64,000 nucleotides of DNA from Nocardioides sp. Lineage in GTDB: Bacteria > Actinomycetota > Actinomycetes > Propionibacteriales > Nocardioidaceae. Shown piece by piece: positions 32,595 through 48,059 of the stretch (within the stretch, counting starts at the first letter, position 1; every line of letters begins with the position of its first letter). Where the stretch lies: positions 1-64,000 of the forward strand of contig NZ_JASEEQ010000001.1 of the NCBI RefSeq assembly GCF_030019515.1, in the 5' to 3' direction. The translations under genes were made by a program, and so were the position numbers. The notes below the pieces were generated by a model. It was not told where the DNA came from, did not search any database, and worked only from the letters and a program-made list of their open reading frames with translations.

Positions 32595-33151
32595 CGCTCC
32601 GGCGTAGAGCGTTCGGTCCCAGTGGGACGTGGACGGACCCCTGTGGTGAGAGGCTCCCAGGCGCGCGGCGCAGGCGAGTGAGACGGGGGCTCGGCTGCGG
32701 GATTGGATCCGCGTCCATTTACGGTCCACAAACACTCAGAACCCATTCGGCAGCCGACGGGTCTCCTGAGGTCTGGAAGCAAGGGCGATTCCCTTGTCAC
32801 ATCGAGGTATTCGGCAGTTTCCGTGTCTTGCCAATAGCATTCGCGACCCTCGAGGGCGTCCAGAGGGTTCCGGTTCAAATCCCCGGCGCGTATCGATCCG
32901 ACTCCGCCGTGTGAACTGAGACTGGGGGAGTGCTTCTGCGTCTCGGATCAGTACGGGATATACCTGCGCGGGGGAGAATCATCGGACGGCCTTGTGGGAC
33001 CTGTTGGAGGGACGAAGTCCCTGACCTGGACCGTCGTCAATCGAGGTTCCTCCTGCGAACGTCAGAATGCTTGATATGAGCGGGCGCAGCACCTCGCCGA
33101 GAAGCCGCGCCTCCGGACGACTCTCGGGGCACGGGGTCACAATGAAGGGAG
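32595..33151. other. Non-coding stretch after the IclR gene
   Basis: I see no supported gene in these 557 bases. A small hairpin (CAAGGG at 32780-32785 with CCCTTG at 32791-32796) could end the IclR transcript. GGTTCAAATCC near 32870-32882 resembles a tRNA T-loop, but the flanking bases do not pair as a T-stem. The base composition is lower in GC than its neighbours, which fits island DNA next to an IS. Confidence 0.5.
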
Positions 33152-33206
33152 TGTCGCTGACGCTCGGAAAGTGAGCACTTTCGACGCTCGAAAAGTGAGC
33201 AGGTCT

Positions 33207-34016
33207 TCAGTGTGCCGTGTTCTCGGCTCGTGCTGAGGGCAGGGTGTCGATCCCGGTGTTTCGGAGCCGGTGGGATGAGCCCTTGAGGGTGATGACCTCG
33301 GCGTGGTGGACGATGCGGTCGATCATGGCTGCGGCGACGACCTGGTCTCCGAACACGTCGCCCCAGCGGGCGAAGGGCAGGTTGCTGGTCAGGATCAGCG
33401 AGGCGTGTTCGTAGCGGGACGAGACGAGCTGGAAGAACAGGTTCGCGGCGTCTTGCTCGAAGGGGATGTAGCCGACCTCGTCGACGATGAGGAGTCCGTA
33501 GCGGCTGAGCCGGGTGAGCTCCTCGGCCAGGCGGCCGTCGTGGTGGGCGGTTTGCAACCGGGTGACCCACTCAGTGGCGGTGGCGAACAGGACCCGGTGT
33601 CCTGCTTGGGCGGCTTTGATGCCGAGCCCGATCGCGAGGTGGGTCTTGCCCGTCCCGGGTGGTCCGAGCAGGACCACGTTCTCGGCCTTGGTCAGGAACG
33701 TGCCGGTGGCCAGATGCGCGATGAGGTCGCGCTTGAGCCCTGGCTGGTGGTCGAAGACGAAGTCCTCGATCGTCTTGGCCGTCCCGAACCCTGCCGCACT
33801 GGTCCGCAACTGTGCACCGGAGGCGTCACGGGCGGATACCTCGCGGTCCAACACCGCGGCCAGGTACTCCTCATGAGACCAGCCTGCGTCGCGGGCCTGG
33901 TCACCGAGCCGGGTTGCTGCCTCCCGGATCCGGGGTGCCTTCAACGCCCGGGCGAGGAAGTCGATCTGCTTGGTGATCCTCTCGGCGTCCTTGGTCGCCT
34001 TCGCGGTGGGTGTCAT
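33207..34016 (-). CDS. istB: IS21 helper ATPase IstB
   Basis: This 269-residue AAA+ protein has Walker A LLGPPGTGKTHLA, Walker B GLLIVDEVGYIPF, and the sensor region ILTSNLPFARWGDVF. It assists the IstA transposase in target selection. The start overlaps the istA stop by four bases, as in other IS21 elements. The frame appears intact. Confidence 0.92.
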   Translation of the reverse strand: MTPTAKATKDAERITKQIDFLARALKAPRIREAATRLGDQARDAGWSHEEYLAAVLDREVSARDASGAQLRTSAAGFGTAKTIEDFVFDHQPGLKRDLIAHLATGTFLTKAENVVLLGPPGTGKTHLAIGLGIKAAQAGHRVLFATATEWVTRLQTAHHDGRLAEELTRLSRYGLLIVDEVGYIPFEQDAANLFFQLVSSRYEHASLILTSNLPFARWGDVFGDQVVAAAMIDRIVHHAEVITLKGSSHRLRNTGIDTLPSARAENTAH

Positions 34017-35230
34017 GACGCAACCTCGATGTTGACGCCGAACGCGGAGTCATAGTCGGCGAGGTCTCGCAGCACCACAGCCGCCTCAGTCGGCATCCCT
34101 CGAGGTGTTTGGAAGGCGTCCCGCAGCCTGGCTGCTGCGCTGACATGGTCGGGGTCGGTGATCGTCAAGGCGGTGCCCCATGCGCGTGGATGGTCGGCGA
34201 TGACACGACCTTCGAGCCGGACGATGACCAGATCCAAGTCGGCGACCACGTCGACCATCCGCCCGATCGCGGTGGGATGGACGGAGTAGTCGTTGCCGAA
34301 GACCCGGACGTAGTAATCCCGGGGCAACCGGACCCGAGCAGCGAACCCATGGGCCGGCGCGACCGGAGGCAGCGCGAGCATTGCAGCCTTGTCGATACCC
34401 AGCAGGTCCACCGGGCGGGCCTTGAGCGCCCGGACGGTGCGGGAGTTGGCTCTGGGCAACCAGATACCCATCTGGGTGTTGAAGTCGCCCGGCGACTCGA
34501 AGTCCCGGCCGGGCAGGAACGAGGTCTCAAAGTAGCCGTTCATCCGTTCGACCCCGCCCTTGGACTCCGGGTCATACGCCTTGAGCTGGTGGATCTTGGT
34601 CGCCAACGCCCCAGCGAACCCACCGACCCCGGCCGCGAGCCGGTTGCGGCGACCGATGCCGGTCTCGTTGTCCCAGATCAACCGGCGCGGGACCGCACCC
34701 AGCTGCTGGGACAGCAAAGCCCACATCCCGGCAAGCAGGTCCGCGGTCGTCCGGGACGGGATCATCACCGCGGTGATGAACTTGGAGAACGACGTGACCA
34801 TCACCAGCACCGGCAACATCACCAGGCTGCCCTCGACCGGGATCCGTGGTTCGGGAAACCACAGGTCGCACTGGACCTGGTCGCCGGGGTGATAGACGAT
34901 CCGATCGGCTGGATCGGTCGGCGCATAGTCAGGCCGGATCAATGCGACGTTCTGACGGAACCACGTCGCTGACCCTGCCCAGCCGACCCGCTCGGCCAAC
35001 ACCGTCGCCGGCATCGAGGGCGTCGCCTTGAGCAACTGTCGGACCTGGACCTCGAACGGTTCAAAGCTCGTCGTCACCGGTGCCCGCGAGTACTCCGGCG
35101 GATCCACCGACGCGATCGCCTTGGCGACCGTGTTCCTCGAGATCCCGAGCTCCCTGGCGATCTGCGCCTTCGGCAACTTCTCACTCACATGCAGCCTGCG
35201 GATCAATGCCCAGTCTTCCAAAGTGATCAC
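34013..35230 (-). CDS. istA: IS21 transposase IstA
   Basis: This 405-residue DDE transposase has an N-terminal helix-turn-helix (KAQIARELGISRNTVAKAIA), then the catalytic core with QCDLWFPE, a second Asp in LIWDNETGIG and Glu in SKGGVERMNGYFE. The C-terminal domain contains YYVRVFGNDYSVHP. It is complete and coupled to istB. Confidence 0.92.
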   Translation of the reverse strand: MITLEDWALIRRLHVSEKLPKAQIARELGISRNTVAKAIASVDPPEYSRAPVTTSFEPFEVQVRQLLKATPSMPATVLAERVGWAGSATWFRQNVALIRPDYAPTDPADRIVYHPGDQVQCDLWFPEPRIPVEGSLVMLPVLVMVTSFSKFITAVMIPSRTTADLLAGMWALLSQQLGAVPRRLIWDNETGIGRRNRLAAGVGGFAGALATKIHQLKAYDPESKGGVERMNGYFETSFLPGRDFESPGDFNTQMGIWLPRANSRTVRALKARPVDLLGIDKAAMLALPPVAPAHGFAARVRLPRDYYVRVFGNDYSVHPTAIGRMVDVVADLDLVIVRLEGRVIADHPRAWGTALTITDPDHVSAAARLRDAFQTPRGMPTEAAVVLRDLADYDSAFGVNIEVAS

Positions 35231-35298
35231 TTTCCCATCGTGGGTTGGTGCTCACTTTTCGAGCGTCACATCTGCTCAGTTTTCAACCGTCATCGACA

Positions 35299-35736
35299 CG
35301 AACACGAAGATTCAACGAGCGTGGTCGGTTGGCAACTCGAGTGGCAACTCGAGCTCGTGACGACCCGGTGCGTATGTCTGGGCCGAAGTGACGCTGTCGA
35401 TCACGGACCGCCGGGCGTTCGGCCGGGTCGATCCCGCTCGCACCAGGCGCTGTTAGGTTGTCAGATGGTGGAAGAGTCGGGGAGTGCGACCAGAGTCGCG
35501 TCCGAACATCCACGCTGTCCGTTCTGCGATCGTCGTAGATCTCGTCGAAATGGGTCGTCGTTTGGTGTGCTGTGGGGCGCAGATGCGTGCCGCACATATT
35601 CCCCATTTATTCGGTCAGAAGTTCGCTCTCGAGGTCAAGTTCGAGCAAGATCCGGATCGCTTCGACCAGGTGTTTGCGCAGGTCAGCGCATGTTTCTGCA
35701 AACGACGGCAGGTCTGTCGTTGCCTCTGGGCATGGA
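35299..35736. other. Gene-free end of the accessory region
   Basis: These 438 bases between the IS21 end and the tRNA fragment hold no frame I can support. Two perfect tandem copies of TGGCAACTCGAG occupy 35330-35353. Short frames that read through the tRNA fragment give the well-known spurious endings GVAGSNPVSP and GSQVQILSARP and should not be annotated. The stretch probably includes the last remnant of the integrated element, but no integrase is left in the window. Confidence 0.5.
35330..35353 (+). repeat. Tandem 12-bp direct repeat
   Basis: TGGCAACTCGAG occurs twice in direct succession. Paired short repeats near an attachment site can be arm-type binding sites of a tyrosine integrase, but nothing here proves it. 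Confidence 0.55.
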
Positions 35737-35770
35737 CAAGGGGTCGCAGGTTCAAATCCTGTCAGCCCGA
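35737..35770 (+). other. tRNA 3'-end fragment, probable attachment site (attR-like)
   Basis: CAAGGGGTCGCAGG followed by TTCAAAT and CCTGTCAGCCCGA is the variable loop, T-arm, acceptor 3' strand (CAGCCCG) and discriminator A of a tRNA. From memory it best fits tRNA-Pro, probably the GGG isoacceptor, whose 5' strand would be CGGGCTG. No CGGGCTG, D-arm or anticodon arm precedes it, so only the 3' part is present. Integrases commonly duplicate a tRNA 3' end, and the copy without a tRNA body marks the far end of the element. The native tRNA terminator follows directly, so the chromosome lies to the right and the island to the left. Confidence 0.72.
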
Positions 35771-35795
35771 CCGTGTGATGTCTCAGGACATCGGC

Positions 35796-35829
35796 GACAC
35801 CCGGACCTGCGAATGCAGGTCCGGGTGTC
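35796..35829 (+). terminator. Strong hairpin terminator after the tRNA fragment
   Basis: GACACCCGGACCTGC (35796-35810) and GCAGGTCCGGGTGTC (35815-35829) form a perfect 15-bp stem with the loop GAAT, followed by GTTCATTT. It has the form of a tRNA terminator and is likely the original one of the tRNA whose 3' end is duplicated here. Confidence 0.85.
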
Positions 35830-36183
35830 GTTCATTTCGAGGGTCTGTTGGTGGGTCCGTTGGGTGCTCGGGGTCGGTTCCGGTCGGCTCACGGGCCAGT
35901 CGCCCGCGCCCGGCGGGAAGTGCGGTGCCTGGGAGCGACCTGGCTCATCCCCAGCACCGCACTTCTCGCTCGGCTCGCCGCGGCAGGCCGATCCCCGGAT
36001 CGTCGGGCGTGGCCTCGCACCAGACCTGCCACCGGGCGGGCCGCGTACCGGCAGAGGTGCTCCTGGACGCGTTGGCACGGCTGCGCGATCCGTTCGACGT
36101 CGCCGCGGAGCCGGACGCCGCCGGCTCCGCTCTGCGGAGAGCGGGGTCGGTACCGGCGTGCCGGTGGGCGTCCGCGGGACGCG
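35830..36183. other. Spacer with an inverted repeat, no gene seen
   Basis: No convincing coding frame is present before the AIM24 gene. GAAGTGCGGTGC (35917-35928) and GCACCGCACTTC (35954-35965) form a perfect 12-bp inverted repeat with a 25-base loop. It could act as a terminator for the leftward AIM24 transcript, though it lies about 220 bases beyond that gene's stop. Confidence 0.5.
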
Positions 36184-36915
36184 TCAGCCGCCGAGCAGGC
36201 CGCCCAGCCCGCCGCCGCTGCTCTTGCCGGCGGCCGCCTGGTGGCCGCCGGTGACCACGGACTCGCTCGGCTGGACGACGACGTACCCCTGTCCGCCGAA
36301 CGCCATCTGGAAGGTCTCGCCGGTGCCCCCGCGGACCAGCGACTTCATGCCGCCGGTGTCGACCCGGATGTCCATGGACACCCCGGAGGTCCACAGCACG
36401 ACCGCCTGCGCGTCGGCGAAGGTGGGCGCGCTCGCGACGTCGAGGGCCACCGGCTCGCCGCTCGTGGTGACCGCGACGTAGCCGGTTCCGCGCAGCGACA
36501 CGTTGTAGAGCCCGCCGGTCATCGCGGCGCCCCGGGCCTGCACCCGGTGGATCTCCCACTCGATGGAGGAGGAGAAGGCGAGCACGCTGGCCCCGTTGAC
36601 CGACACCAGGTCGTTCTCGAGGTAGAGGATCTGGACGTCGGAGGCGAAGTCGGCGACGAACAGCTCACCGGTGCCGGTGCACTGCATCATGTCGACGCCC
36701 TCGCCGGTCACCGCCTGCTTCAACATCTTGCCCAGACCGCCGGACCCCTTGTTCTCGAACCGGACGTCGCCCTGGTAGGCGACCATGGAGCCGGTCTTGG
36801 CCCACACCGGGCCGTAGCCCATGTCGATCTTCAGAAGCTTCTTGTTCTGCAGGGAGAACGGGTCGGTCGACGACTTCTCCTCGAACTCCTCCAGCAGGGT
36901 TCCGTGCAGCGGCAT
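36184..36915 (-). CDS. AIM24-family protein
   Basis: This 243-residue protein has the double beta-roll pattern of AIM24/DUF124: LLKIDMGYGPVWAKTGSMVAYQGDVRFE, then a middle ELFVADFASDVQILYLENDLVSVNG, and VALDVASAPTFADAQAVVLWTSGVSMDIRVD (read in pieces). It ends in a glycine-rich tail. Bacterial members are of uncertain function; yeast Aim24 supports mitochondrial inner-membrane organisation. It is the first gene on the chromosomal side and is divergent from the small protein at 37042. Confidence 0.85.
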   Translation of the reverse strand: MPLHGTLLEEFEEKSSTDPFSLQNKKLLKIDMGYGPVWAKTGSMVAYQGDVRFENKGSGGLGKMLKQAVTGEGVDMMQCTGTGELFVADFASDVQILYLENDLVSVNGASVLAFSSSIEWEIHRVQARGAAMTGGLYNVSLRGTGYVAVTTSGEPVALDVASAPTFADAQAVVLWTSGVSMDIRVDTGGMKSLVRGGTGETFQMAFGGQGYVVVQPSESVVTGGHQAAAGKSSGGGLGGLLGG

Positions 36916-37041
36916 CTCGACTCCTTCTGAGGCCGTCGGCTTCGCGCCGGCGACGTCCTGTTTCGCACTCTACGAGCGCCGTCCGGCGTACGCTGCCGAA
37001 CGGGGGAGCACCCCGACGAAGGGCTCAGGGAGGGCACCGAG

Positions 37042-37440
37042 ATGGGATTCCTGGACAAGGCGAAGGCGGCGGCCAACGAGCTCGCCGCGAAGGCCGACAC
37101 GGCGCTGGCGAACTCGGGCCTCGGCGGCCCCGGCGCGGCGGTCTCGCCGGAGAGGCTGCTCCGTGATCTGGGGGTCGTCGCCTATCTCGAGGCCGCAGGC
37201 CGACCGGCGCCGGAGGGTGAGCGGGACCGGCTGGTGGCCGCGCTGGGCGAGCACGAACGGGCCGGGACCCTGCCGGCGCTGGTGCTGCAGACCACGCCGC
37301 CGCCCGCGGCCGCCACGACGCCGCCCCCGAGTGGGGTGACGCCGGCTGCGCCGTCGGGCCCGGCCGAGACGCAGTCCGGCACGCCCGTGGTACCGCCTCC
37401 TCCGCCGCCGTCGTGGCTGAACAAGGCCGAGGACAGTTGA
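37042..37440 (+). CDS. Hypothetical protein with proline-rich tail
   Basis: This 132-residue protein starts MGFLDKAKAAANELAAKAD after GGAGGG-type spacing. An amphipathic N-terminal helix of about 30 residues is followed by a short globular part (ERLLRDLGVVAYLEAAGR). A long tail is rich in Pro, Thr and Ala and includes a run of Pro. No family is recognised. Divergence from AIM24 with 126 bases between them suggests a shared promoter region. Confidence 0.65.
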   Translation: MGFLDKAKAAANELAAKADTALANSGLGGPGAAVSPERLLRDLGVVAYLEAAGRPAPEGERDRLVAALGEHERAGTLPALVLQTTPPPAAATTPPPSGVTPAAPSGPAETQSGTPVVPPPPPPSWLNKAEDS

Positions 37441-37510
37441 CGCTGACCGGGGCGCAGTGGCGGCGCGAGGTCGCCGACCCGCGTTGGTCGCGCGGTCGTA
37501 GCCTTCGCCG

Positions 37511-38230
37511 GTGACCGACCTGCTGCTGGTCGCCGGCGTCGCGGCGGCCGTGTTCGTGCTGGCGGCGATGGCGCAGGCGATCACCGGCTTCGGATCGGCG
37601 CTGGTCGCCGTACCGCTCCTGACGCTGGTGGTGCACCCGATCGCGGCGGTGGTCGCCGCGACGGCCGTCAGCCTGGTGCTGACCAGCGGTGCGGCCTGGC
37701 GGGAGCGGTCGTACGTCGACCTCGCCTCCGCACGCACCCTGACGCTGACCGGCGTCCTGGGGATGCCGCTCGGGCTGGTCCTCCTGGCCCTGGCCGACGA
37801 GTCGCGGCTCCAGGCGTGGATCGCGGGGTCGATGCTGGTGATGGTGCTGCTCGTGGCGGCCGGGGTCCGGATCGGGGCCCGCGGACTGCCGGTGGCCGGA
37901 CTGCTCAGTGGCGCGCTGCTCACCTCGACCGGCATGAACGGGCCGCCCCTGGTGATGGCGCTGATGGACCGCGAGCGCCGCGGCTACCGAGCCACGCTGC
38001 AGGGTGTGTTCGCCGTCCAGGACGTGGTGGCGGTCGCGGCGTTCCTCGTGCTCGGGTACGTCGACCGCGAGGTCGCGCTCCTGATCGCCTCGGGCGTCGT
38101 GGGACTCCCGGCCGGCTGGCGGCTGGGCGACGCGGTGTTCCACCGGATCCCGGCCGCCCGGCTGCGGCCCGTGATCGTGGGCGGGTTGGTGCTCACCGCG
38201 GCCTCGGTGCTCCTGGCTGCGGTCACCTAG
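37511..38230 (+). CDS. TauE/SafE-family membrane protein
   Basis: This 239-residue membrane protein starts at a GTG. It has about seven to eight hydrophobic spans and the family's first motif QAITGFGSALVAVPLL, then a repeat-related motif LLTSTGMNGPPLVMALMD in the second half. Members move sulfite, sulfonates or other organic anions. No neighbouring enzyme points to a substrate. Confidence 0.82.
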   Translation: MTDLLLVAGVAAAVFVLAAMAQAITGFGSALVAVPLLTLVVHPIAAVVAATAVSLVLTSGAAWRERSYVDLASARTLTLTGVLGMPLGLVLLALADESRLQAWIAGSMLVMVLLVAAGVRIGARGLPVAGLLSGALLTSTGMNGPPLVMALMDRERRGYRATLQGVFAVQDVVAVAAFLVLGYVDREVALLIASGVVGLPAGWRLGDAVFHRIPAARLRPVIVGGLVLTAASVLLAAVT

Positions 38231-38268
38231 TCGACGGCGGGATGCGGAATAGGGCGTGGTTCGATATA

Positions 38269-38282
38269 GTTGACATATCAAC
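38269..38282. promoter_or_regulatory. Possible operator/promoter before the SDR gene
   Basis: GTTGA and TCAAC flank CATA, giving a 5-bp inverted repeat that contains a TTGACA -35-like element. It lies about 135 bases before the SDR start. Confidence 0.35.
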
Positions 38283-38360
38283 AACATCGCGGAGCGACGA
38301 CCACCACCCACCCGTGGACCGGGCGGACGGCGGCCGAGGCGGGAGGGACCGCCCGCTCAC

Positions 38361-38390
38361 GACACCGATCGACACCGATCGACACCGACG
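38361..38390 (+). repeat. Three tandem 10-bp repeats in the SDR leader
   Basis: GACACCGATC occurs twice and is followed by a third copy with two changes (GACACCGACG). It lies 28 bases upstream of the SDR start, in the untranslated leader or promoter. Confidence 0.7.
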
Positions 38391-38417
38391 TACCGAACTC
38401 ACAGAAGGGTGCAGATC

Positions 38418-39170
38418 ATGAGGAGACTGGAGGGTCGCGTCGCGATCGTCACCGGCGCAGCGAGCGGGATCGGCAAGGAGACCGCGAAGCGCCTGGCCGA
38501 GGAGGGTGCGGCCGTGCTGATCACCGACATCCAGGTCGAGGCCGGCGAGGCCACGGTCAAGGAGATCGAGGAGGCCGGGGGGCGCGCCGCGTTCATCCGC
38601 CACGACGTCACCAGCGAGGCCGACTGGGAGGCCGCGATGGCCAAGGCGTCCGAGGACCTCGGTGGCGTCGACATCCTCGTCAACAACGCGGGCATGGGCG
38701 ACATCAAGCCGATCGAGGAGACCACCCTGGCCGAGTGGGACCGGACGGTCGCCATCGACCAGACCGGCGTCTTCTTGGGCATGAAGATCGCCGCGCCGTA
38801 CCTCAAGCGGTCCGAGCACGCCTCGGTCATCAACATCAGCTCGATCTTCGGCACCAGCGGCGGGTTCGGCGTCTCGCCGGCCTACCACGCGGCCAAGGGC
38901 GCGGTGCGGACGCTGACGAAGAACGTCGCGCTGCACTGGGCGACCGAGGGCGTCCGGGTGAACTCGATCCACCCCGGCTTCATCGCCACCCCGATCCTCG
39001 AGGAGTCCCGCGACACCCCGATCTGGGACGGCATGGTGCAGCTGACCCCGATGGCCCGGCTCGGCCGCCCCGAGGACATCGCGGCCGGCGTGGCGTACCT
39101 GGCCAGCGACGACGCCGCGTTCGTCACCGGGCTCGAGCTCTACATCGACGGCGGGTACATGGCCCGCTGA
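38418..39170 (+). CDS. SDR-family dehydrogenase (hydroxysteroid/alcohol type)
   Basis: This 250-residue SDR starts at MRRLEGRVAIVTG; the ATG at 38418 is preferred to a GTG at 38409 because of spacing from AGAAGG. It has TGAASGIG, an acidic residue after strand two (TDIQ) for NAD, NNAGMGD, Ser in ISSIFG, and the pair in YHAAK. The profile is close to 3-alpha/20-beta-hydroxysteroid and secondary alcohol dehydrogenases, which suits a steroid-degrading strain. The substrate is not established. Confidence 0.85.
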   Translation: MRRLEGRVAIVTGAASGIGKETAKRLAEEGAAVLITDIQVEAGEATVKEIEEAGGRAAFIRHDVTSEADWEAAMAKASEDLGGVDILVNNAGMGDIKPIEETTLAEWDRTVAIDQTGVFLGMKIAAPYLKRSEHASVINISSIFGTSGGFGVSPAYHAAKGAVRTLTKNVALHWATEGVRVNSIHPGFIATPILEESRDTPIWDGMVQLTPMARLGRPEDIAAGVAYLASDDAAFVTGLELYIDGGYMAR

Positions 39171-39236
39171 CGCTGGCCCGCCGGTCCGGCACCCGCGGCC
39201 AGGGGCCTGCTCGCAGACACCTATGCTGGTCTGCCC

Positions 39237-40724
39237 ATGAGCGGGATCCTGGTCGCGGGCACGAGCTCGGACGCCGGCAAGAGCGTCGTCACCACCGGAC
39301 TGTGCCGCTCGCTGGCGCGGGCGGGAGTCAAGGTCGCGCCGTTCAAGGCGCAGAACCTGTCGAACAACTCGATGGTCTGCGCCGACGGCGCGGAGATCGG
39401 GCGGGCGCAGTGGGTGCAGGCCGTCGCCGCGAGCACCGAGCCAGAGGCCGCGATGAACCCGGTGCTCCTGAAGCCCGGGAGCGACCTGCGCAGCCACGTC
39501 GTCGTGATGGGCCGTCCCGCCGGCACGCTGGGCGCGGACGACTTCGCCGACGGCCGGGAGCCGCTGGCGCACACGGCGTACGCCGCCTTCGACGACCTGG
39601 CGTCGCGGTACGACGTCGTGGTCGCCGAGGGCGCCGGCAGCCCGGCGGAGGTCAACCTGCGGGCCGGCGACTTCGTGAACATGGGGCTCGCGCGGCATGC
39701 CGGCCTGCCCACCGTGGTGGTCGGGGACATCGACCGCGGCGGTCTGCTCGCCGCGATGTTCGGCACCGTCGCGCTGCTCGAGCCGGCCGACCAGCGGCTG
39801 CTCGCGGGATTCGTCGTCAACAAGTTCCGCGGCGACCTCGACCTGCTGCGGCCGGGCCTCGAGGAGCTGGAGCGGCTCACCGGCCGGCAGGTGTACGGCG
39901 TGCTGCCGTGGCACCCCGACCTGTGGCTGGACTCCGAGGGCACCCTCGACCTCGCCGGCCGGCGGGCCCGCGACGGCCGGGCCGCGCTCAAGGTCGCGGT
40001 CGTCCGGCTGCCGCGGATCAGCAACGTGACCGACGTCGACGCGCTGGGGATCGAGCCCGGCCTCGACGTCGTCCTCGCCACCGACCCGCGGTCACTCGCG
40101 GACGCCGACCTGGTCGTGCTGCCCGGCACCCGGGCGACCATCGCGGACCTCGCCTGGCTGCGCGAGCGGGGGCTGGACCGGGCGATCCACGCGCACGCCG
40201 CGGCGGGCCGGCCGGTGCTCGGGATCTGCGGAGGCCTCCAGATGCTCGGCCGGTCGGTGTCGGACCCGGGCGGCGTGGAGGGTGAGCCGGGCGCCCAGGT
40301 CGAGGGCCTGGGGCTGCTCGACGTACGCACGGACTTCGCGTCGCAGAAGGTGCTCCGGCTCTCGCGCGGCCTCGCGCTCGACTCGTCGACGTCCGGCTAC
40401 GAGATCCACCACGGGGTCGTCAGCCGAGGCGCCGACGCGGAGGAGTTCCTCGGCGGGGCACGCAGCGGCCACGTGCTGGGCACGATGTGGCACGGCAGCC
40501 TCGAGGGCGACGCGTTCCGGACCGCGTTCCTCACCGAGGTGGCGCGGCTGACCGGTCACCTGTGGGAGCCTTCCGGCGTGAGCTTCGCAGCGGCCCGGGA
40601 GACGCGGTTGGAGCTGCTCGCCGACCTCGTCGAGGAGCACCTCGACGTCACCGCGATCGCCTCGCTGGCCACGGACGGCGCGCCGCACGGCCTGCCGGTG
40701 CTGCCGCCGGGCGCCGACCGGTGA
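39237..40724 (+). CDS. cobQ: Adenosylcobyric acid synthase
   Basis: This 495-residue enzyme amidates adenosylcobyrinic a,c-diamide four times with glutamine in late cobalamin synthesis. It has the N-terminal ATP-binding segment GTSSDAGKSVVTTGLCR, then PFKAQNLSNNS and AEGAGSPAEVNLR. The C-terminal glutamine amidotransferase domain has the nucleophile Cys in GICGGLQMLG and His in MWHGSLEG. It overlaps cobU by four bases. It belongs to a cobalamin nucleotide-loop set and would serve B12-dependent enzymes such as IcmF. Confidence 0.93.
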   Translation: MSGILVAGTSSDAGKSVVTTGLCRSLARAGVKVAPFKAQNLSNNSMVCADGAEIGRAQWVQAVAASTEPEAAMNPVLLKPGSDLRSHVVVMGRPAGTLGADDFADGREPLAHTAYAAFDDLASRYDVVVAEGAGSPAEVNLRAGDFVNMGLARHAGLPTVVVGDIDRGGLLAAMFGTVALLEPADQRLLAGFVVNKFRGDLDLLRPGLEELERLTGRQVYGVLPWHPDLWLDSEGTLDLAGRRARDGRAALKVAVVRLPRISNVTDVDALGIEPGLDVVLATDPRSLADADLVVLPGTRATIADLAWLRERGLDRAIHAHAAAGRPVLGICGGLQMLGRSVSDPGGVEGEPGAQVEGLGLLDVRTDFASQKVLRLSRGLALDSSTSGYEIHHGVVSRGADAEEFLGGARSGHVLGTMWHGSLEGDAFRTAFLTEVARLTGHLWEPSGVSFAAARETRLELLADLVEEHLDVTAIASLATDGAPHGLPVLPPGADR

Positions 40725-41242
40725 GGGTCCTGGTCACCGGCGGGGTCCGCTCCGGCAAGTCCACCCACGCCGAGGCGCTGCTCCGCGGCGAGCCCGCCGT
40801 CACGTACGTCGCCCCGGGGCCGGTGCGCGACGACGCCGACTGGGCCGCGCGGGTCGCCGCCCACCGCGCCCGCCGTCCCGCGGCGTGGACCACGCTCGAG
40901 ACGGGCGACCTCGCCGCCGCGCTGCGCACCCCCGGCCCGGTGCTGGTGGACTGCCTCGGCACCTGGCTGACCCGGCAGGTGGACGAGGCCGGGCTCTGGG
41001 AGGCCGAGTCCGACGTGGTGTCGGCGTACGTCGACGCCCGGGTGACCGACGCGCTCGCCGCCCTGGTCGAGCCCCGGGACGGCACGGTGGTGCTCGTCAC
41101 CAACGAGGTTGGCCTCGGCATCGTCCCCGAGCACCGCTCCGGGCGCGTGTTCCGCGACCTCCTCGGGGTCGTGAACCAGCGCTTCGGCCGCGCCTGCGAC
41201 GAGGTCCACCTCGTCGTCGCCGGGCGCGTCCTCGTCCTCTAG
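40721..41242 (+). CDS. cobU: Adenosylcobinamide kinase/guanylyltransferase
   Basis: This 173-residue enzyme begins at a GTG overlapping the cobQ stop (MRVLVTGGVRSGKSTHAE). The P-loop GGVRSGKST, the conserved VDCLGTWLT and VTNEVGLGIVPEHRSGRVFRD (in pieces) are diagnostic. It phosphorylates adenosylcobinamide and transfers GMP to give the GDP form. It ends two bases before the convergent cobS stop. Confidence 0.92.
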   Translation: MRVLVTGGVRSGKSTHAEALLRGEPAVTYVAPGPVRDDADWAARVAAHRARRPAAWTTLETGDLAAALRTPGPVLVDCLGTWLTRQVDEAGLWEAESDVVSAYVDARVTDALAALVEPRDGTVVLVTNEVGLGIVPEHRSGRVFRDLLGVVNQRFGRACDEVHLVVAGRVLVL

Positions 41243-41244
41243 CC

Positions 41245-41934
41245 CTAACCGGCCGCCCAGACGAGCAGCGTCGTCGCGAGCGCCAGCTCGACGGCGGCCC
41301 CCATCACGTCGCCGGTCACGCCGCCGAACCGGCGTCCGGCACGGTGGACGAGCACGAGGACGACCAGGCCACCGAGCACCGAGAGCAGGAGCCCGCCGAG
41401 GACGGCGACGGGGACCGGGACGGTGCGGGCGACGTCGGCACCCAGACCGTCCGCCCGCGCCGCCGGCACCCGCGTGCAGCACACGATCCACAGCGCGCAG
41501 CGGGACAGGCACACCAGCGCGCCGGCGAGGAGCGGCCGATCCAGGTACGCCGTGAGCGCCGTCGCCTGCACACCGGCCACCACGACGGTCGCCAGCACGC
41601 CCGCCGGGCCGCTGGTGCCCGACCGCATCACCGCGAGCGAGCGGACCGGGTCGTACGACGCCGTGAGGCCGTCCACCGTGTCGGAGAGCCCGTCCCAGTG
41701 CAGCGCGCGGGAGCCGGCGGCCAGCGCCCCCACCGTCAGGAGGCCGACCGCGAGCGGCGGCACCTCGAGCGTCCGCCCGGCCACCAGGACCAGGGCCACG
41801 AGCAGCCCGAGGGGGACGGCCGCCACCGGCGCCAGGAGCATCGCGCGGCGCGCGGTGGTCCGGTCGACCCGCTCGGGCGGGCGCACCGGCAGGGCGGTCA
41901 GGGTGCCGACGGCGAGCCGCCAGGCGTCACGCAT
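41245..41934 (-). CDS. cobS: Cobalamin 5'-phosphate synthase
   Basis: This 229-residue membrane protein joins adenosylcobinamide-GDP with alpha-ribazole. The start MRDAWRLAVGTLTALPV was chosen because it begins the conserved N-terminus and overlaps cobT by only eight bases. HWDGLSDTVDGLTAS and the following RSGTSGPAGVLA form the conserved catalytic region. Five or more hydrophobic spans follow. Confidence 0.92.
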   Translation of the reverse strand: MRDAWRLAVGTLTALPVRPPERVDRTTARRAMLLAPVAAVPLGLLVALVLVAGRTLEVPPLAVGLLTVGALAAGSRALHWDGLSDTVDGLTASYDPVRSLAVMRSGTSGPAGVLATVVVAGVQATALTAYLDRPLLAGALVCLSRCALWIVCCTRVPAARADGLGADVARTVPVPVAVLGGLLLSVLGGLVVLVLVHRAGRRFGGVTGDVMGAAVELALATTLLVWAAG

Positions 41935-42946
41935 CGAGCTCGCTGAGCAGCGCCACCTCGCGCAGCAGGGCGACCGCGCTGCGCAGTACCGGCACGGCCG
42001 CGACCGCGCCACTGCCCTCGCCGAGCCGCAGCCCGAGGTCGAGCGCCGGCTCCAGGCCGAACTTGGCCAGCGCGAGCGACTGGGCCGGCTCGGTGGAGCG
42101 GTGGCCCGCGGCGTACCAGGCGGCGGCCCCCGGCTCGAGCCGGTCCGCAGTGAGCGCGCAGGCCACCGCCATCAGCCCGTCGAGGAGCGCCGGCACCCCC
42201 TGGCGCGCCGCCTCGAGGAGGTACCCGGTGCTGGCGGCGAGGTCCGCGCTGCCGAGCGCGGTGAGCGCCTCGACGGGGTCGTCCACGCGGGCTCCGGCGC
42301 GGTGGAGGGCCTGGTCGATCAGCGTCTGCTTGTGCTCGAGGGTGGGCACGTCGACGCCGGTGCCCCGCCCGGTGACCTCGCTGGCAGGCAGGCCCAGCCC
42401 GGCCGCCACCAGCGCCGCGGCCGGCGTGGTGTTGCCGATCCCCATGTCGCCGCTCAGCAGCAGCTGGGCGCCGGCGGCGATCTCCTCGCGGGCCACGGCG
42501 GCGCCGGCGTCGAGCGCGGCCAGGGTCTGCTCGGCGGTCAGCGCGTCCTCGAGGTGGATCGCGCCCGAGGAGCGCCGGACCTTGAACCGTCGTACGTCGT
42601 CGGGGACGCCGGCCAGGTCGTCGTCGACGCCCAGGTCGAGGACCCGGACCGCGACCCCGTGGGCGGCGGCGAGCGCGTTGACCCCCGCCCGGCCCGCGAC
42701 GAACGTCCGCACCATGGCGGCGGTGATCGCGGGCGGGTACGCCGAGACGCCGTGGCGCGCGACGCCGTGGTCACCGGCGAAGATCACCAGCCGCACCCGG
42801 TCCAGCTCCCGTGGTGGCACCTCGCCCTGGCAGGCCGACAGCCAGACCCCGAGGTCGCCGAGCCGACCGAGTGCTCCGGGCGGTGTGGCCAGGTCGGAGA
42901 GGCGGGCGGCGGCCAGGGCCGCGGCCTCTGGGGACGGTGCGCGCAT
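41927..42946 (-). CDS. cobT: Nicotinate-nucleotide:dimethylbenzimidazole phosphoribosyltransferase
   Basis: This 339-residue enzyme makes alpha-ribazole 5'-phosphate for the lower loop of cobalamin. The region IFAGDHGVARHGVSAYP, then LLLSGDMGIGNTTPAAAL and the catalytic Glu in LRLGEGSGAV are as expected. The start MRAPSPEAA at 42946 gives the usual length. It is upstream of and overlaps cobS. Confidence 0.92.
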   Translation of the reverse strand: MRAPSPEAAALAAARLSDLATPPGALGRLGDLGVWLSACQGEVPPRELDRVRLVIFAGDHGVARHGVSAYPPAITAAMVRTFVAGRAGVNALAAAHGVAVRVLDLGVDDDLAGVPDDVRRFKVRRSSGAIHLEDALTAEQTLAALDAGAAVAREEIAAGAQLLLSGDMGIGNTTPAAALVAAGLGLPASEVTGRGTGVDVPTLEHKQTLIDQALHRAGARVDDPVEALTALGSADLAASTGYLLEAARQGVPALLDGLMAVACALTADRLEPGAAAWYAAGHRSTEPAQSLALAKFGLEPALDLGLRLGEGSGAVAAVPVLRSAVALLREVALLSELDA

Positions 42947-42951
42947 GGCCG

Positions 42952-43512
42952 TCAGGCTAACGGCGCGATCACGTCCCGGACCCAGCGGTCGACCTCGCCC
43001 CGGGTGCGCAGCCGTACGACGGGCAGGTCGGGCCGGGCCGCGGCCACCGCCCGGACCCGCCCGTCGTACAGGTGCCGGGTGCTGATCGACCACCGCACGA
43101 TGTGCTCGCGGTCGGTGACGAAGCCGAGCAGCGGGCCCTCCTGGTTGCCGTTCCACAGCTGCTCGCGGCGCACGCGGCGTCGGACCGTGCGGCGCACCAC
43201 CCGGCTCAGCGTCACCCGGAACGGCAGGTCCACCCAGACCATCAGGTCGGCCTGCTCGGCCAGCAGGGGTCGCGCCCCGTCGTACTGCCACTCGGTCACC
43301 CAGCGGCCCGCGGCGAGGAACGCCGCCACGTCGGACTCGAACGCAGGCCGCGGCGTCCAGCCGGCGCCGTGGTACAGGCCGTCGATCTCGGTGTACGGCA
43401 GGCCCAGCACGGCGGCGACCTGGCGCGCCAGCGTGCTCTTGCCGGAGCCCGACACACCGGCGACCGCGATCCGCGCGGGCCGGTAGGGGAGCGGGTCGGA
43501 CGCGCTGAGCAC
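42952..43512 (-). CDS. P-loop adenylate kinase-like protein
   Basis: This 186-residue protein has the P-loop [16 protein letters not shown], an aromatic acidic segment TEIDGLYHGAGWTPRP, and an Arg-rich lid VVRRTVRRRVRREQLWNG. It matches the FlaR/topology-modulation type of adenylate kinase-like proteins, whose role is poorly known. It starts 22 bases from a divergent gene and sits five bases upstream of cobT, so it may be co-transcribed with cobTS. Confidence 0.78.
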   Translation of the reverse strand: MLSASDPLPYRPARIAVAGVSGSGKSTLARQVAAVLGLPYTEIDGLYHGAGWTPRPAFESDVAAFLAAGRWVTEWQYDGARPLLAEQADLMVWVDLPFRVTLSRVVRRTVRRRVRREQLWNGNQEGPLLGFVTDREHIVRWSISTRHLYDGRVRAVAAARPDLPVVRLRTRGEVDRWVRDVIAPLA

Positions 43513-43534
43513 CGCGGCATCGTACGGTGCGGGC

Positions 43535-44323
43535 GTGGAGGCCTGCGAGATCGTGCCGGGGGACCGGCCGGCGACGTTCGTGCTGCGCCTGTCCGGCAGG
43601 AGCCAGTCGCACGTGGACCTCGACGACCCGACCCGGCTGGCCTTCGACTACGTACGCCGGATCGCCGATGTCGTCGACGCCGCAGCCCCGCCCGGGGCGC
43701 CGGTGCGGGTGGTGCACGTCGGCGGCGCGGCGATGACGCTGCCGCGGTACGTCGCCGCCACCCGGCCGGGCTCGGCCCAGGTCGTCCTGGAGCCGGCGAC
43801 CGAGGTCACCGAGCTGGTCCGCCGGGAGCTCCCGCTGCCGCGCCGCAGCGGGATCAAGGTCCGGGGCGTGGACGGTCGGCGCGGCGTCGCCGAGCTCCGC
43901 GACGGGTACGCGGAGCTGGTCCTGCTCGACGCGTTCTCCGACGGCCGGGTGCCGGCCGAGCTCGTCACGGTGGAGTTCTTCGAGGACGTCGCGCGGGCGC
44001 TCGACGGGGGCGGGCTCCTGGTGCTCAACCTGACCGACCGGGCGCCGTTCGGGTGGACCCGGCGGGTGGTCGCCGGCCTGCGGCAGGTGTTCGGGTCGGT
44101 GGCCCTGGGAGTCGAGCCCGCGACCCTGCGGGCCCGCCGGCTCGGCAACCTCGTGGTGGTCGCCTCGCGCGGCAGCGTCCCGGCCGACGCGCTGGCGGCC
44201 CGGGCGGCGAGCGCGGCCGCGCCGTACCGGGTGCTGGACGGCCGGCAGGTCAGCGACGGCTTCGGCGGCGGCACCGCCTTCACCGATGCCGACTCCGCGC
44301 CGTCCCCGGCCCCGGACGGCTGA
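43535..44323 (+). CDS. Spermidine synthase-like methyltransferase-fold protein
   Basis: This 262-residue protein starts at a GTG (MEACEIVPGDRP). The Rossmann-type segment VRVVHVGGAAMTLPRYVAAT, then VVLEPATEVTELV and YAELVLLDAFSDGRVPAELVT match spermidine synthase-like proteins. The HVGGG glycine motif is reduced to HVGGAA, and the polyamine-site residues are not obvious, so true spermidine synthase activity is doubtful. Confidence 0.78.
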   Translation: MEACEIVPGDRPATFVLRLSGRSQSHVDLDDPTRLAFDYVRRIADVVDAAAPPGAPVRVVHVGGAAMTLPRYVAATRPGSAQVVLEPATEVTELVRRELPLPRRSGIKVRGVDGRRGVAELRDGYAELVLLDAFSDGRVPAELVTVEFFEDVARALDGGGLLVLNLTDRAPFGWTRRVVAGLRQVFGSVALGVEPATLRARRLGNLVVVASRGSVPADALAARAASAAAPYRVLDGRQVSDGFGGGTAFTDADSAPSPAPDG

Positions 44324-44346
44324 GCATCGCGGGAGCCGTTCCCGGT

Positions 44347-44460
44347 GAGTCGGCGCGTCTTGCCCGGCTGTGCGGGTCGAGTCGGCGCATCTTGCCCGGC
44401 TTCGCGTACAAGATGCGCCGACTCGACGTTGCTGAGCGGGCAGTTTGCGCCGACTCGACG
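44347..44460. repeat. Nested palindromic repeat between convergent genes
   Basis: GTCGAGTCGGCGCATCTT (44376-44393) pairs perfectly with 44410-44427 across a 16-base loop. A further copy of GAGTCGGCGCGTCTTGCCCG starts at 44347, and a second inverted copy GCGCCGACTCGACG ends at 44460, so the unit occurs as two copies in each orientation. It lies between convergent stops (44323 and 44462) and can act as a bidirectional terminator. The doubled arrangement resembles REP-type or mobile palindromic elements. Confidence 0.82.
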
Positions 44461-44461
44461 G

Positions 44462-45574
44462 TCAGGCGGGGTCGGCGGCCAGGGCCCGTCCGACGGTGAG
44501 CGCCTGCTCGGTCGAGCCGCCGTGGAGGAACTCGAAGCGCTTGGCGCTGGTGAAGTAGCGGTGCGCCTCGCCGTCGAGGTCGATGCCGACGCCGCCGTGC
44601 AAGTGCACGGTGGTGTGCGCGAGCCGGTGCCCGGCGTCGGCCGCCCAGAGCTTCGCGATCGCGACCTCGGTCTCCGCCGGGAGCCCCTCCTCGAGACGCC
44701 AGGCGGCCTGCCACAGGGTGAGCCGCTGGCCGAGCACGTCGATGTAGCCGTCGGCCAGGCGCTGGGAGACCGCCTGGAAGGTGCCGATCGGCCGCCCGAA
44801 CTGCTCGCGCGTCTTCGCGTACGTCGAGGTGAGCCGAAGCGCGCCCTCGGTGATGCCCAGCTGCTCGGCGCTCGCGGCGAGCAGCAGCAGCTGACGCAGC
44901 CGGCGGTCGGTCGACCCGTCGGCCGCGCCGACCGCGCGGTCCGGCCCGACGGCGACGCCGTCCAGGTCGAGGCGCGCCACGCCGTCGCCGTCGGAGAACC
45001 GCTGGGCGACGACGGTGACGCCCGGATCGCCGGGCTCGACCAGGTAGACGCCGGTGCCGGTCGGGGTCTCCGCCGGCACGAGGAAGGCGTCGGCGTACGG
45101 TCCCGCCGGCACGATCGCCTTGCTGCCGGTGAGCCGGTGGCCGTCCCCGTCGGGCGTGGCCCGGGTCGTGGGGCGGCTCGGGGCGAAGGCACGCTCCTCG
45201 GCGACCGCGGCGGTCAGGACGTGCGCGCCGGTGGCGGCGCCGGGCAGCCAGCGCTCCTGCAGGGCCGCCGGCCCGGCCTCGGCGAGCAGCCGCGCCGCCG
45301 GGCCGTGGGCCGCGAGCGGCAGCGGCGCCACGGTGCGGCCGACCTCGACGAGCACCCGGCACAGCTCGACCAGCCCGAGCCCCGCGCCGTCGTACCGCTC
45401 GGGCAGCGCGAGGCCGAGCAGCCCGGCCGCACCCAGCTCGGCCCACAGGTCGCGGTCGAAACGGTCGCCGCCGGCCTCGACGGCCTTGAGCCGGTCATTG
45501 TTCGTGCGGTCCCGCAGGATGCTGGCCGCGAGCTCCGCGGCCTCGTCCTGCTCGGGGGTGAAGGTGAAGTCCAT
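44462..45574 (-). CDS. Acyl-CoA dehydrogenase, likely non-catalytic subunit
   Basis: This 370-residue protein has the acyl-CoA dehydrogenase fold: FTPEQDEAAELAASIL, ALPERYDGAGLGLVELC, then the C-terminal REQFGRPIGTFQAVSQRLAD and HLHGGVGID. At the position of the Glu in ER found in isovaleryl-CoA dehydrogenase-like enzymes it has RRLRQLLLL, and near the C-terminus FLHGGSTEQ lacks the medium-chain type Glu. It lies three bases after its partner gene. Steroid-degrading actinobacteria use paired, heterotetrameric dehydrogenases in which only one subunit carries the base. Confidence 0.87.
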   Translation of the reverse strand: MDFTFTPEQDEAAELAASILRDRTNNDRLKAVEAGGDRFDRDLWAELGAAGLLGLALPERYDGAGLGLVELCRVLVEVGRTVAPLPLAAHGPAARLLAEAGPAALQERWLPGAATGAHVLTAAVAEERAFAPSRPTTRATPDGDGHRLTGSKAIVPAGPYADAFLVPAETPTGTGVYLVEPGDPGVTVVAQRFSDGDGVARLDLDGVAVGPDRAVGAADGSTDRRLRQLLLLAASAEQLGITEGALRLTSTYAKTREQFGRPIGTFQAVSQRLADGYIDVLGQRLTLWQAAWRLEEGLPAETEVAIAKLWAADAGHRLAHTTVHLHGGVGIDLDGEAHRYFTSAKRFEFLHGGSTEQALTVGRALAADPA

Positions 45575-45577
45575 GGT

Positions 45578-46765
45578 CTACCTCTTCGCTGCGGGCAGTC
45601 CGAGCCCGACGTAGCCGATGATGTCGCGCTGGATCTCGTTGGTGCCGCCGCCGAAGGTCATCACCAGCGCCGAGCGGTAGTAGCGCTCGAGCCGACCCGC
45701 CAGCACGGCGCCGTCGGAGTCGCCGGTGACCCCGGCGTTCGGGCCGACGATCTCCATCAACGACCGGTAGACCTCGGTGGCCAGCTCCGAACCGTAGATC
45801 TTGGTCGCCGAGGCCTCGGCGGGGGAGAGGTCGATGCCCGCGTCGGCGTCGGCCGCGAGCTTCCAGTTGATCAGGGAGAGGGCCTCGGTGCGCGCGTGCG
45901 CGCGGCCGAGAGCGATCTGCACCCACTCGACGTCGATGACTCGCTGGCCGTCGGGGTTCTTCGTCTCCTGCGCCCACCTGCGGACCAGGTCGATCGACTG
46001 GGTGAGCGGTGCGGACGAGGTGAGCGCGACGCGCTCGTGGTTGAGCTGGTTCGTCATCAGCGACCAGCCGCCGTTCAGCTCGCCGACCAGGTTGGCGTAG
46101 GGGACGCGGACGTCCTCGTAGTACGTCGCGCTCGTGCTCACGCCCGCGACGGTGTGGACCGGGGTGTAGGAGAACCCCGGCGCGTCCGCGGGCACCATGA
46201 TCATCGAGAGGCCCTTGTGCCGGGGCAGGTCCGGGTCGGTGCGGCAGGCCAGCCAGATCCAGTCGGCGTACTGGATCAGCGAGGTCCACATCTTCTGCCC
46301 GTTGATCACCCACTCGTCGCCCTCGCGGACCGCCTTGGTCTTGAGCGAGGCGAGGTCGGTGCCGGAGCCGGGCTCGGAGTAGCCGATCGAGAAGTGCAGG
46401 TCGCCGGCCAGGATCCGGGGCAGGAAGTACTCCTTCTGCTCGGCGGTGCCGTAGCGCATGATCGTCGGCCCGACCGTGTTGAGCGTCAGGTACGGGATCG
46501 GCACCCCGGCGACGGCGGCGGCGTCGGTGAAGATCAGCTGCTCGATCATCGAGCGCGCCTGCCCGCCGTACTCCGTCGGCCAGCCGATGCCGAGCCAGCC
46601 GTCGGCGCCGAGGGTGCGGATGACGTCCTTGTAGACGCCCGCCTCCCCGAACTCGCCGGTCGCCGACGCGAGGCCGGCCTTGACCTCGGGGGTGACGAGG
46701 GCGGCGAAGTACTCGCGAAGCTCCTCGCGGAGCCGCTCCTGCTCGGGTGTGAGGGCGATGTGCAT
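45578..46765 (-). CDS. Acyl-CoA dehydrogenase, likely catalytic subunit
   Basis: This 395-residue protein begins MHIALTPEQERLREEL. It has GWPTEYGGQ, the FAD motif SIGYSEPGSGTDLASLKT, WVINGQKMWTS, and LNHERVALTSSAP, where the Glu fits the isovaleryl-type catalytic base. The end reads MTFGGGTNEIQRDIIG. With the adjacent partner it should form an alpha2-beta2 dehydrogenase for a side-chain or ring-derived CoA ester. It is divergent from kshA, with a KstR-like site between. Confidence 0.89.
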   Translation of the reverse strand: MHIALTPEQERLREELREYFAALVTPEVKAGLASATGEFGEAGVYKDVIRTLGADGWLGIGWPTEYGGQARSMIEQLIFTDAAAVAGVPIPYLTLNTVGPTIMRYGTAEQKEYFLPRILAGDLHFSIGYSEPGSGTDLASLKTKAVREGDEWVINGQKMWTSLIQYADWIWLACRTDPDLPRHKGLSMIMVPADAPGFSYTPVHTVAGVSTSATYYEDVRVPYANLVGELNGGWSLMTNQLNHERVALTSSAPLTQSIDLVRRWAQETKNPDGQRVIDVEWVQIALGRAHARTEALSLINWKLAADADAGIDLSPAEASATKIYGSELATEVYRSLMEIVGPNAGVTGDSDGAVLAGRLERYYRSALVMTFGGGTNEIQRDIIGYVGLGLPAAKR

Positions 46766-46834
46766 GGCGGGGACTCCCGTAGGGACAGCTGGCGGTGGGA
46801 AGGTGGGTGCTGCTGGCAACCGCGACCTAAAAAC

Positions 46835-46848
46835 TATAACCTGTTCTC
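46835..46848. promoter_or_regulatory. KstR-like operator between acyl-CoA dehydrogenase and kshA
   Basis: TATAACCTGTTCTC fits the KstR core pattern T-N-N-AAC-N-N-GTT-N-N-A with only the last base different. KstR represses cholesterol genes in mycobacteria and relatives. It lies 30 bases before kshA and 70 before the divergent gene. Confidence 0.62.
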
Positions 46849-46877
46849 GTTTTGGTCCACCTGTCTGGAGGCACGCC

Positions 46878-48059
46878 ATGAGCCCCACCCCGTCCAGCGC
46901 CCGAGCTCTCGACCGCGGCACCCCGCCGGAGCGGTTCGCTCGCGGCTGGCACTGCCTGGGCCTCGCGTCGGCCTTCGCCGACGGCAAGCCGCACGGCGTG
47001 GAGGCGTTCGGCGGCAAGCTGGTGGTGTGGCAGGACACCCGGGGCGAGATCAACGCCCTGGACGGCTATTGCCGGCACATGGGCGGTGACCTCACCCAGG
47101 GCACGATCAAGGGCGACGAGGTCGCGTGCCCCTTCCACGACTGGCGCTGGGGTGGGGACGGCAAGTGCAAGGCGATCCCGTACGCCCGCCGGGTGCCGCT
47201 GCGGGCGCGCACCGAGCGCTACCCGGTCGTGGTCCGCAACGGCCAGGTGCTGGTCTGGCACGACGTGGAGGGCTCCGAACCCGACCTGGACGTGCTCCCG
47301 CCGGAGCTGCCCGGCGTCGGCACCGACGAGTACACCGACTGGACCTGGGAGGTCCTCGACGTCCCCAACGCGCACTGCCGCGAGATCATCGACAACGTCG
47401 TGGACATGGCGCACTTCTTCTACATCCACTTCGCGTTCCCGACCAGCTTCCGCAACGTGTTCGAGGGACACGTCGCGACCCAGTTCATGGAGTCGACCGG
47501 CCGTCCGGACGTGGGCGGTGCCGGGTACGGCGACGAGGGGCTGATGCTGAAGTCGGAGGCCTCGTACTACGGGCCGTCGTACATGATCAACTGGATCAAC
47601 GTCGACTACAAGGGCTTCGAGACCGAGGTCATCCTGATTAACTGCCACGTGCCGACCTCGCAGAACTCCTTCAAGCTGCAGTACGGCCTGTGCGTCAAGA
47701 AGCCCGAGGGCGTGGACGACGCCACCGCCGAGTACATCGGCAAGCGCTACTCCGAGACGTTCAAGGAGGGCTTCGAGCAGGACGTCGCGATCTGGCTCAG
47801 CAAGGCGCCGGTGCAGAACCCGCTGCTGTGCGAGGAGGACGGTCCGGTCTACCAGCTGCGCCGGTGGTACGAGCAGTTCTACGTCGACCGGGAGGACGTC
47901 ACCTCGGAGATGACCGAGCGGTTCGAGTTCGAGGTCGACACCACCAAGGCCAACGAGCACTGGCGCGCCGAGGTGGAGGAGAACCTCGCCCGGAAGAGCG
48001 CCGAGGACGCGGAGGCGCAGGACGCCGACGCCACCCCGCCGATCATGACGGGCACCTGA
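46878..48059 (+). CDS. kshA: 3-ketosteroid 9-alpha-hydroxylase oxygenase component
   Basis: This 393-residue Rieske oxygenase adds a 9-alpha hydroxyl to androstenedione-type steroids, leading to opening of ring B. The Rieske centre is Cys65, His67, Cys84 and His87 (CRHMGGD and CPFHDW). The mononuclear iron site lies in DNVVDMAHFFYIHF with His179 and His184. GGAGG precedes the ATG. It overlaps the next small gene by one base and is followed by its reductase, kshB. Confidence 0.9.
   Translation: MSPTPSSARALDRGTPPERFARGWHCLGLASAFADGKPHGVEAFGGKLVVWQDTRGEINALDGYCRHMGGDLTQGTIKGDEVACPFHDWRWGGDGKCKAIPYARRVPLRARTERYPVVVRNGQVLVWHDVEGSEPDLDVLPPELPGVGTDEYTDWTWEVLDVPNAHCREIIDNVVDMAHFFYIHFAFPTSFRNVFEGHVATQFMESTGRPDVGGAGYGDEGLMLKSEASYYGPSYMINWINVDYKGFETEVILINCHVPTSQNSFKLQYGLCVKKPEGVDDATAEYIGKRYSETFKEGFEQDVAIWLSKAPVQNPLLCEEDGPVYQLRRWYEQFYVDREDVTSEMTERFEFEVDTTKANEHWRAEVEENLARKSAEDAEAQDADATPPIMTGT

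Follow-up and report, generated by a model that had tools for sequence, protein, structure and literature searches.

The proline tRNA fragment and its intact counterpart

The window analyzed here comprises the initial 64 kb of C11, a 496,574-bp contig in the 35-contig, 4.6-Mb draft assembly of a Nocardioides genome, hereafter G000. It begins at the left end of the contig, inside an insertion sequence (IS), and contains catabolic genes, a second IS, a 37-nt copy of the 3' end of tRNA-Pro(GGG) and a strong hairpin, in that order (Table 1). An intact tRNA-Pro(GGG) on another contig (C16:29303-29378) contains the matching 37 nt. ARAGORN and Rfam (gathering thresholds) called no tRNA in the window, complete or otherwise, so the tRNA body is missing at the half site; the Rfam scan of the whole window found nothing. 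A 28-nt core of the fragment occurs once in the window and was matched in 0 of 100 shuffles; genome-wide, with up to three mismatches allowed, it is present exactly in the window and on C16, with a single mismatch in tRNA-Pro(CGG) on C33, and nowhere else.

A preliminary description of this DNA had proposed a tRNA 3' end, probably of tRNA-Pro, lacking its body, and the 37-nt identity bears this out. It had further placed the intact tRNA beyond the window to the left; such a tRNA exists, with an integrase gene beside it, but on C16, not upstream on the same contig. The ISs, gene wrecks and catabolic genes reported to the left were likewise seen, the wrecks as at least one wrecked gene.

Table 1. 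Positions of the principal features, in window coordinates
Feature	Position	Strand	Basis
IS at contig left end	1-1664	+	Pfam DDE_Tnp_1_4; DDE transposase 124-1524
Cargo	1665-33150		Pfam, NCBIfam, composition
IS21-family IS	33151-35299	-	Pfam IstB_IS21, rve / Mu-transpos_C_2; inverted ends
Remaining right terminus, IS21-family copy to att	35300-35736		Arm repeats; repeat ends
Right-arm direct repeats, candidate integrase arm sites	35587-35616	+	Position with respect to att shared with G062, G155, G175
Right-arm motif GCGCAGGTCAGCGC	35676-35689	+	Alignment of right arms
attR core, 37-nt copy of tRNA-Pro(GGG) 3' end	35737-35773	+	Exact match to C16:29343-29379
Displaced hairpin (putative terminator) of host tRNA-Pro	35796-35829	+	Fold z -8.4; like hairpin after tRNA in G032
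Chromosome right of island	35774-51428		Collinear with G032, 86-90% identity

An empty site in a related genome

In the related genome G032, one intact tRNA-Pro(GGG) joins the flank found on C16 to the flank found on C11, i.e. it presents an empty site. C16 matches G032 as far as the tRNA 3' end (L034:14380), and C11 matches from position 35734 onward; collinearity was followed to 51428, the end of the sequence compared, and the AIM24 protein of G032 is 96% identical to that of G000. The earlier view that core chromosome lies to the right of the half tRNA is thus upheld, and the comparison it called for, with a relative lacking the island, shows the chromosome running across the junction through an intact tRNA-Pro. 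Base composition also changes at this point, mean GC3 being 0.860 in 27 genes to the left and 0.949 in 17 genes to the right (Mann-Whitney p 1.5e-7), for a hand-chosen set of 44 genes; left out as short, broken or doubtful were 4 of the 30 ORFs picked automatically to the left and 8 of the 25 to the right. The half tRNA is confirmed as attR and defines precisely where a large mobile island in a proline tRNA gene ends on the right.

Host and element hairpins

The hairpin behind the half tRNA has a perfect stem of 15 bp, in which 35796-35810 pairs with 35815-35829 around a GAAT loop, and the folding energy of 35774-35840 is -46.1 kcal/mol (z -8.4). A like hairpin, complete with a small upstream stem, also stands behind the uninterrupted tRNA-Pro of G032; the one in the window can therefore be assigned to the host as its displaced terminator, and the possibility that it is part of the element is rejected on the same ground. 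The perfect 15-bp stem reported in the preliminary description therefore stands, with its ownership refined: it is the host tRNA's, not the island's. Half sites in G009, G062 and G022 also have a host-type hairpin behind them; those in G155, G170, G175, G118, G141, G165 and G071 are followed by other sequences, including several element-type hairpins, as expected with neighboring elements.

A different hairpin now lies behind the tRNA on C16 (-34.2 kcal/mol, z -7.9, for a 60-nt stretch). In an alignment of 14 such element hairpins from 13 genomes, 96.4% of cells are paired and both sides have changed in 9 of 18 pairs. The covariation score is 0.269, reached by 0 of 500 shuffles (0.110, sd 0.017), shuffle-based scores of this type being inflated by the relatedness of the sequences; controls in which the alignment was slid gave at most 0.044. 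It appears that the element supplies its own hairpin behind the repaired tRNA, the terminator function of these hairpins being putative. Displacement of a tRNA terminator by tRNA-integrated ICEs has already been published (described in the available part of PMC13023037).

The integrase and the element arms

Adjoining the intact tRNA on C16, and convergent to it, is an ORF for a tyrosine integrase of 425 residues (C16:29487-30764, minus strand; Phage_integrase, E 7e-20). It is overlapped by an ORF with an HTH_17/excisionase domain, after which the contig ends. The closest named relatives of the integrase are mostly from Nocardioides. A known phage or plasmid source was rejected, the best integrase identities among the listed matches being 42% and 38%, with none of 60% or more; the 42% match is the best phage integrase, and phage structural families were absent from the window cargo ORFs scanned.

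The left arms of nine elements have TATTC repeats spaced 11 bp apart, three in G000, G210, G062, G080, G155 and G071, two in G175 and G170, and one in G141. Among seven right ends, those of G000, G062, G155 and G175 carry two repeats, at -147/-148 and -136/-137 from the core, and G170 and G141 carry one each; the repeats are absent from the G071 right end used, which perhaps belongs to another element of a tandem array. The stretch holding the repeats in G000 is unique within the window. Nearer the core, GCAGGTCA, within the longer right-arm motif, is invariant in all seven aligned right arms. From this anatomy, shared between left and right ends, the right end in the window looks like the partner of the C16 integrase, and the repeats are candidate arm sites at which the integrase may bind.

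Cargo of the window

The IS at the contig left end, which we take to be of the IS1380 family, has copies 84-85% identical in G071, and the IS21-family copy near the att site encodes an IstA-like protein (34013-35230) and IstB (33207-34016). Between them lie icmF, acyl-CoA genes, a molybdenum hydroxylase, a broken hydantoinase, a peptide-type ABC transporter and an IclR regulator. Neither conjugation genes nor an FtsK/SpoIIIE-type Tra protein were found among the window cargo ORFs scanned (28 of 30 picks plus three others). When cargo common to related elements was sought, the ORFs matched only transposases and, weakly, one ABC-ATPase; against pieces of related elements from six genomes, none of the 30 ORFs of the window gave a match (E 1e-10, 40% of length).

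The region from 11.5 to 32.5 kb has a collinear counterpart of about 21 kb in G209 (72-78% identity), the only long match among the matches listed for 146 other genomes. At L241:6153-6857 (G209:C522), this relative of the cargo block starts some 0.6 kb from a tRNA-Lys gene, and the block may use another tRNA site in G209. At 8613-9218 of the window there is a fused gene wreck, composed of transketolase-like and 2-oxoacid dehydrogenase acyltransferase pieces, the two parts of which match places about 1.7 kb apart in G209; these counterparts come after the cargo block in G209, the wreck before it in G000.

The icmF gene of the cargo (4672-7896) is full length and matches the icmF gene of G032 at 82-88%. 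Its GC3 of 0.96 is chromosome-like, which counts against an island origin, and icmF appears near-universal in the genus among the matches listed, 24 of the 215 genomes being unscored. The gene was nevertheless rejected as an argument for a left half made of native core, because the host has a separate, G032-like icmF 3' remnant on C35 (L225, G000:C35:90762-91232), 93% identical to the G032 gene over 475 bp.

Proposed origin and mechanism

Window positions 1-35773 are, with high confidence, the right part of an integrative element that inserted at the 3' end of tRNA-Pro(GGG) and most likely descends from an ICE. This reading draws on the att sites at both ends, which carry the tRNA 3' end as a direct repeat, the empty site in G032, the shared arm anatomy, the integrase and excisionase-like genes, the covariation of the element hairpins, the host-type hairpins in G032 and behind three half sites, the tRNA-Pro att of all 21 closest integrase loci and the GC3 shift; we infer that C16 and C11 flank one element today. 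Counting against it are the half sites of seven genomes with no host-type hairpin behind them, the G071 right end, which is devoid of arm repeats, and the lack of conjugation genes among the window cargo ORFs scanned. Int1 would join attP and attB within the 37-bp identity, such that the tRNA body would stay on the left and regain a 3' end and hairpin from the element; the host's own 3' end and terminator would be pushed to the right end, giving attR and the hairpin behind it. Excision with Xis would restore the state seen in G032, and conjugation, if any, would proceed from the T4SS block described below.

The contig gap and a second integrase

The last 55 bp of C16 are the end of an IS, a full copy of which is present at C33:84390-86926; it is called IS21-like on the basis of the 35% identity of one of its genes to the window IstB. 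Inward of this copy, C33 has a half site of tRNA-Met, which comes with a hairpin of its own, and genes for an excisionase-like protein, a second integrase and T4SS components. In six relatives (G062, G080, G118, G153, G154, G157) the order is tRNA-Pro, int1, xis1, Met half site, xis2, int2, followed in five of the six by at least a coupling-protein gene. T4SS genes in these relatives include those for the coupling protein and VirB4-like and VirB6-like proteins; there are none in the compared piece of G153, and in G154 and G080 the only conjugation genes seen are those for the coupling protein and an ArdC-like protein. Positions C16:144001-145999 of G062 were left out of the comparison.

These six genomes were picked for having the Met half site, and the frequency of the arrangement is to be taken solely from 7 of 20 other close integrase loci, which have a second integrase/excisionase pair beside the first, a floor in that most loci were viewed only ~1.5 kb beyond int1. 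Six of the seven dual-pair loci have a tRNA-Met half site, five of these with conjugation-type genes nearby; no exact Met half site was found in the seventh, G210. The 104.6-kb element of G118 has one Met half site in all, as expected for an unused attP. G000 also has a second T4SS coupling-protein gene (C2:27172-27528), in a different conjugation-like region.

The IS flank on C16 ends in CTCGGC, which is also the start of the inner flank on C33, i.e. a 6-bp target duplication, and the two flanks, with the IS omitted, align with the unbroken spacer of the relatives. On the strength of the duplication and the alignment, an IS21-like copy most likely once stood between xis1, now on C16, and the Met half site, now on C33. 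The element probably once carried the second integrase with its tRNA-Met attP and the T4SS block. One element, some 124 kb or more in length, accounts for this most simply, an IS-driven split being less probable; against one continuous element is the placement of attL and attR on different contigs, with an IS-bounded gap between them.

As to where the block is today, we lean slightly towards an island that still holds it whole, the path of C33 through the IS21-like copy being a misjoin. The order would then be C16, the IS21-like copy, C33 (from 84.4 kb down to 1), an IS, and C11. CTCGGC is common to the C16 flank and the inner C33 flank and is lacking from the outer flank, which ends in ACCGAG; together with the alignment to the unbroken spacers, this argues for such an order, as does the agreement of the resulting gene order with that of the six relatives. 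From int2 on, moreover, the C33 proteins are mostly 85-97% identical to those of the tRNA-Pro element of G118, and the first 55 bp of C33 come from the right end of the IS found at the C11 left edge. Less easily accommodated are the continuation of C33 through the IS21-like copy into other low-GC3 DNA and the presence of chromosome-like genes from about 98.5 kb; the IS also meets C33 and C11 at the same (right) end, so that at least one extra IS copy or segment is needed.

Removal of the T4SS block from the island by recombination between IS21 copies, leaving a cut-down, non-conjugative catabolic remnant, is a less probable but still serious explanation. It takes the assembled C33, which links the block to other DNA across the IS21-like copy, at face value, and C16 does end 55 bp into that IS, but an assembly misjoin at a repeated IS gives the same picture.

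The preliminary description had the whole left half arriving by tRNA-targeted integration. Integration at the tRNA stands; a single event for all of it is not established, and the IS copies, the fused gene wreck and an icmF distinct from that of the host suggest that the cargo is composite. Piecemeal growth, in which a small element entered at tRNA-Pro and the catabolic genes were added later by IS-driven events, is a reading that we hold as tentative. The IS copies flank the cargo on both sides, the wreck and the dissimilarity of icmF to the host's remnant fit with it, and the G000 element shares no cargo with the related elements compared; the collinear block of ~21 kb in G209, however, suggests joint transfer of that part.

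A match by chance, decay of a duplicated tRNA or chimeric assembly, in favor of which there is only the partial nature of the half tRNA, is very improbable and was rejected in view of the exact 37-nt identity, the shuffles, the empty site in G032, the conserved offsets of the arm repeats and the presence of the host terminator directly behind the half tRNA.

Relation to known elements

As a tRNA island, that of G000 is ordinary, an element of a known kind; it is the dual-attachment head of its relatives that is unusual. In a survey of 275 actinobacterial genomes, 17 putative ICEs of T4SS type were counted, compared with 144 of FtsK/SpoIIIE type (PMC3218068, as given in the part available). The T4SS-type ICEs, as described there, also have a tyrosine integrase at a tRNA 3' end, and the T4SS genes in relatives of the G000 element are a further likeness; by contrast, the T4SS block of G000 is on another contig, and in the relatives there is an additional integrase pair along with a half site of tRNA-Met. 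With pSAM2 and other AICEs the G000 element has in common an Int/Xis pair and insertion at the 3' end of a tRNA, but AICEs transfer by one FtsK/SpoIIIE-like protein according to the same account, whereas relatives of the G000 element have T4SS genes. ICEKp1, in the sections of PMC13023037 that treat it, likewise shifts the terminator of the host tRNA to its distal end; its int is, however, co-directional with the tRNA and uses the tRNA promoter, whereas that of G000 is convergent, with a covarying hairpin between tRNA and int. The ICEclc-like catabolic ICEs, as outlined in PMC8704644, are also integrative elements with degradation cargo, in a different host group. Among the Nocardioides matches listed in the open-licence literature there is no report of the G000 element.

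The tripartite ICE3 of Mesorhizobium likewise has more than one integrase/RDF/attP set per element; as described in the available text of PMC5882170, it has three integrase/att sets and three dispersed parts, whereas the relatives of the G000 element have two adjacent sets and, at the loci compared, do not appear tripartite in that sense. It is conceivable, though rather unlikely, that int1-xis1 (tRNA-Pro) and xis2-int2 (tRNA-Met) form a dual-targeting head in a Nocardioides ICE lineage, whose members could enter either tRNA or bridge both in a bipartite state. Each attP would carry a tRNA 3' half with its own hairpin terminator, and the host tRNA would always be given a new terminator.

Specialist interest lies in these attP-borne hairpins and the dual-attachment head of the relatives, which together offer a testable system for the choice of tRNA target by ICEs and bear on how tRNA transcription is spared during their integration. 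For G000 itself, a tRNA fragment is pinned as one end of a mobile catabolic island with an exact att site, candidate arm sites and the terminator anatomy are supplied, and the strong hairpin proves to be a host part; the contig split illustrates how an ICE may escape notice in a draft assembly because of IS copies.

tRNA-Pro as an integration hotspot

In at least 33 of 118 genomes of the genus, G000 among them, the 28-nt core is present three or more times with at most one mismatch among the matches listed, by a hand count in which two copies are expected with one GGG and one CGG tRNA, as in G000. The 21 closest integrase loci (G000 included) are at an intact tRNA-Pro(GGG) in 17 cases and at a Pro half site in four, whereas nine more distant integrases (55-56% identity) lie at tRNA-Met (seven), a Met half site (one) or tRNA-Pro (one). 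pSAM2 integrates at a tRNA-Pro. In G165, G022, G170, G175, G118 and G062, sites follow one another on a single contig at distances of 4 to 119 kb. In G071, C1:167959-297907 has four consecutive tRNA-Pro 3' ends, the first being the intact tRNA, with spacings of 50, 26 and 54 kb, and is probably a tandem array of elements. A 67.5-kb relative element in G175 (C8:34299-101868; L217-L220) encodes a TrwC relaxase, together with Baseplate_J and phage-tail domain proteins that perhaps constitute a contractile injection cluster.
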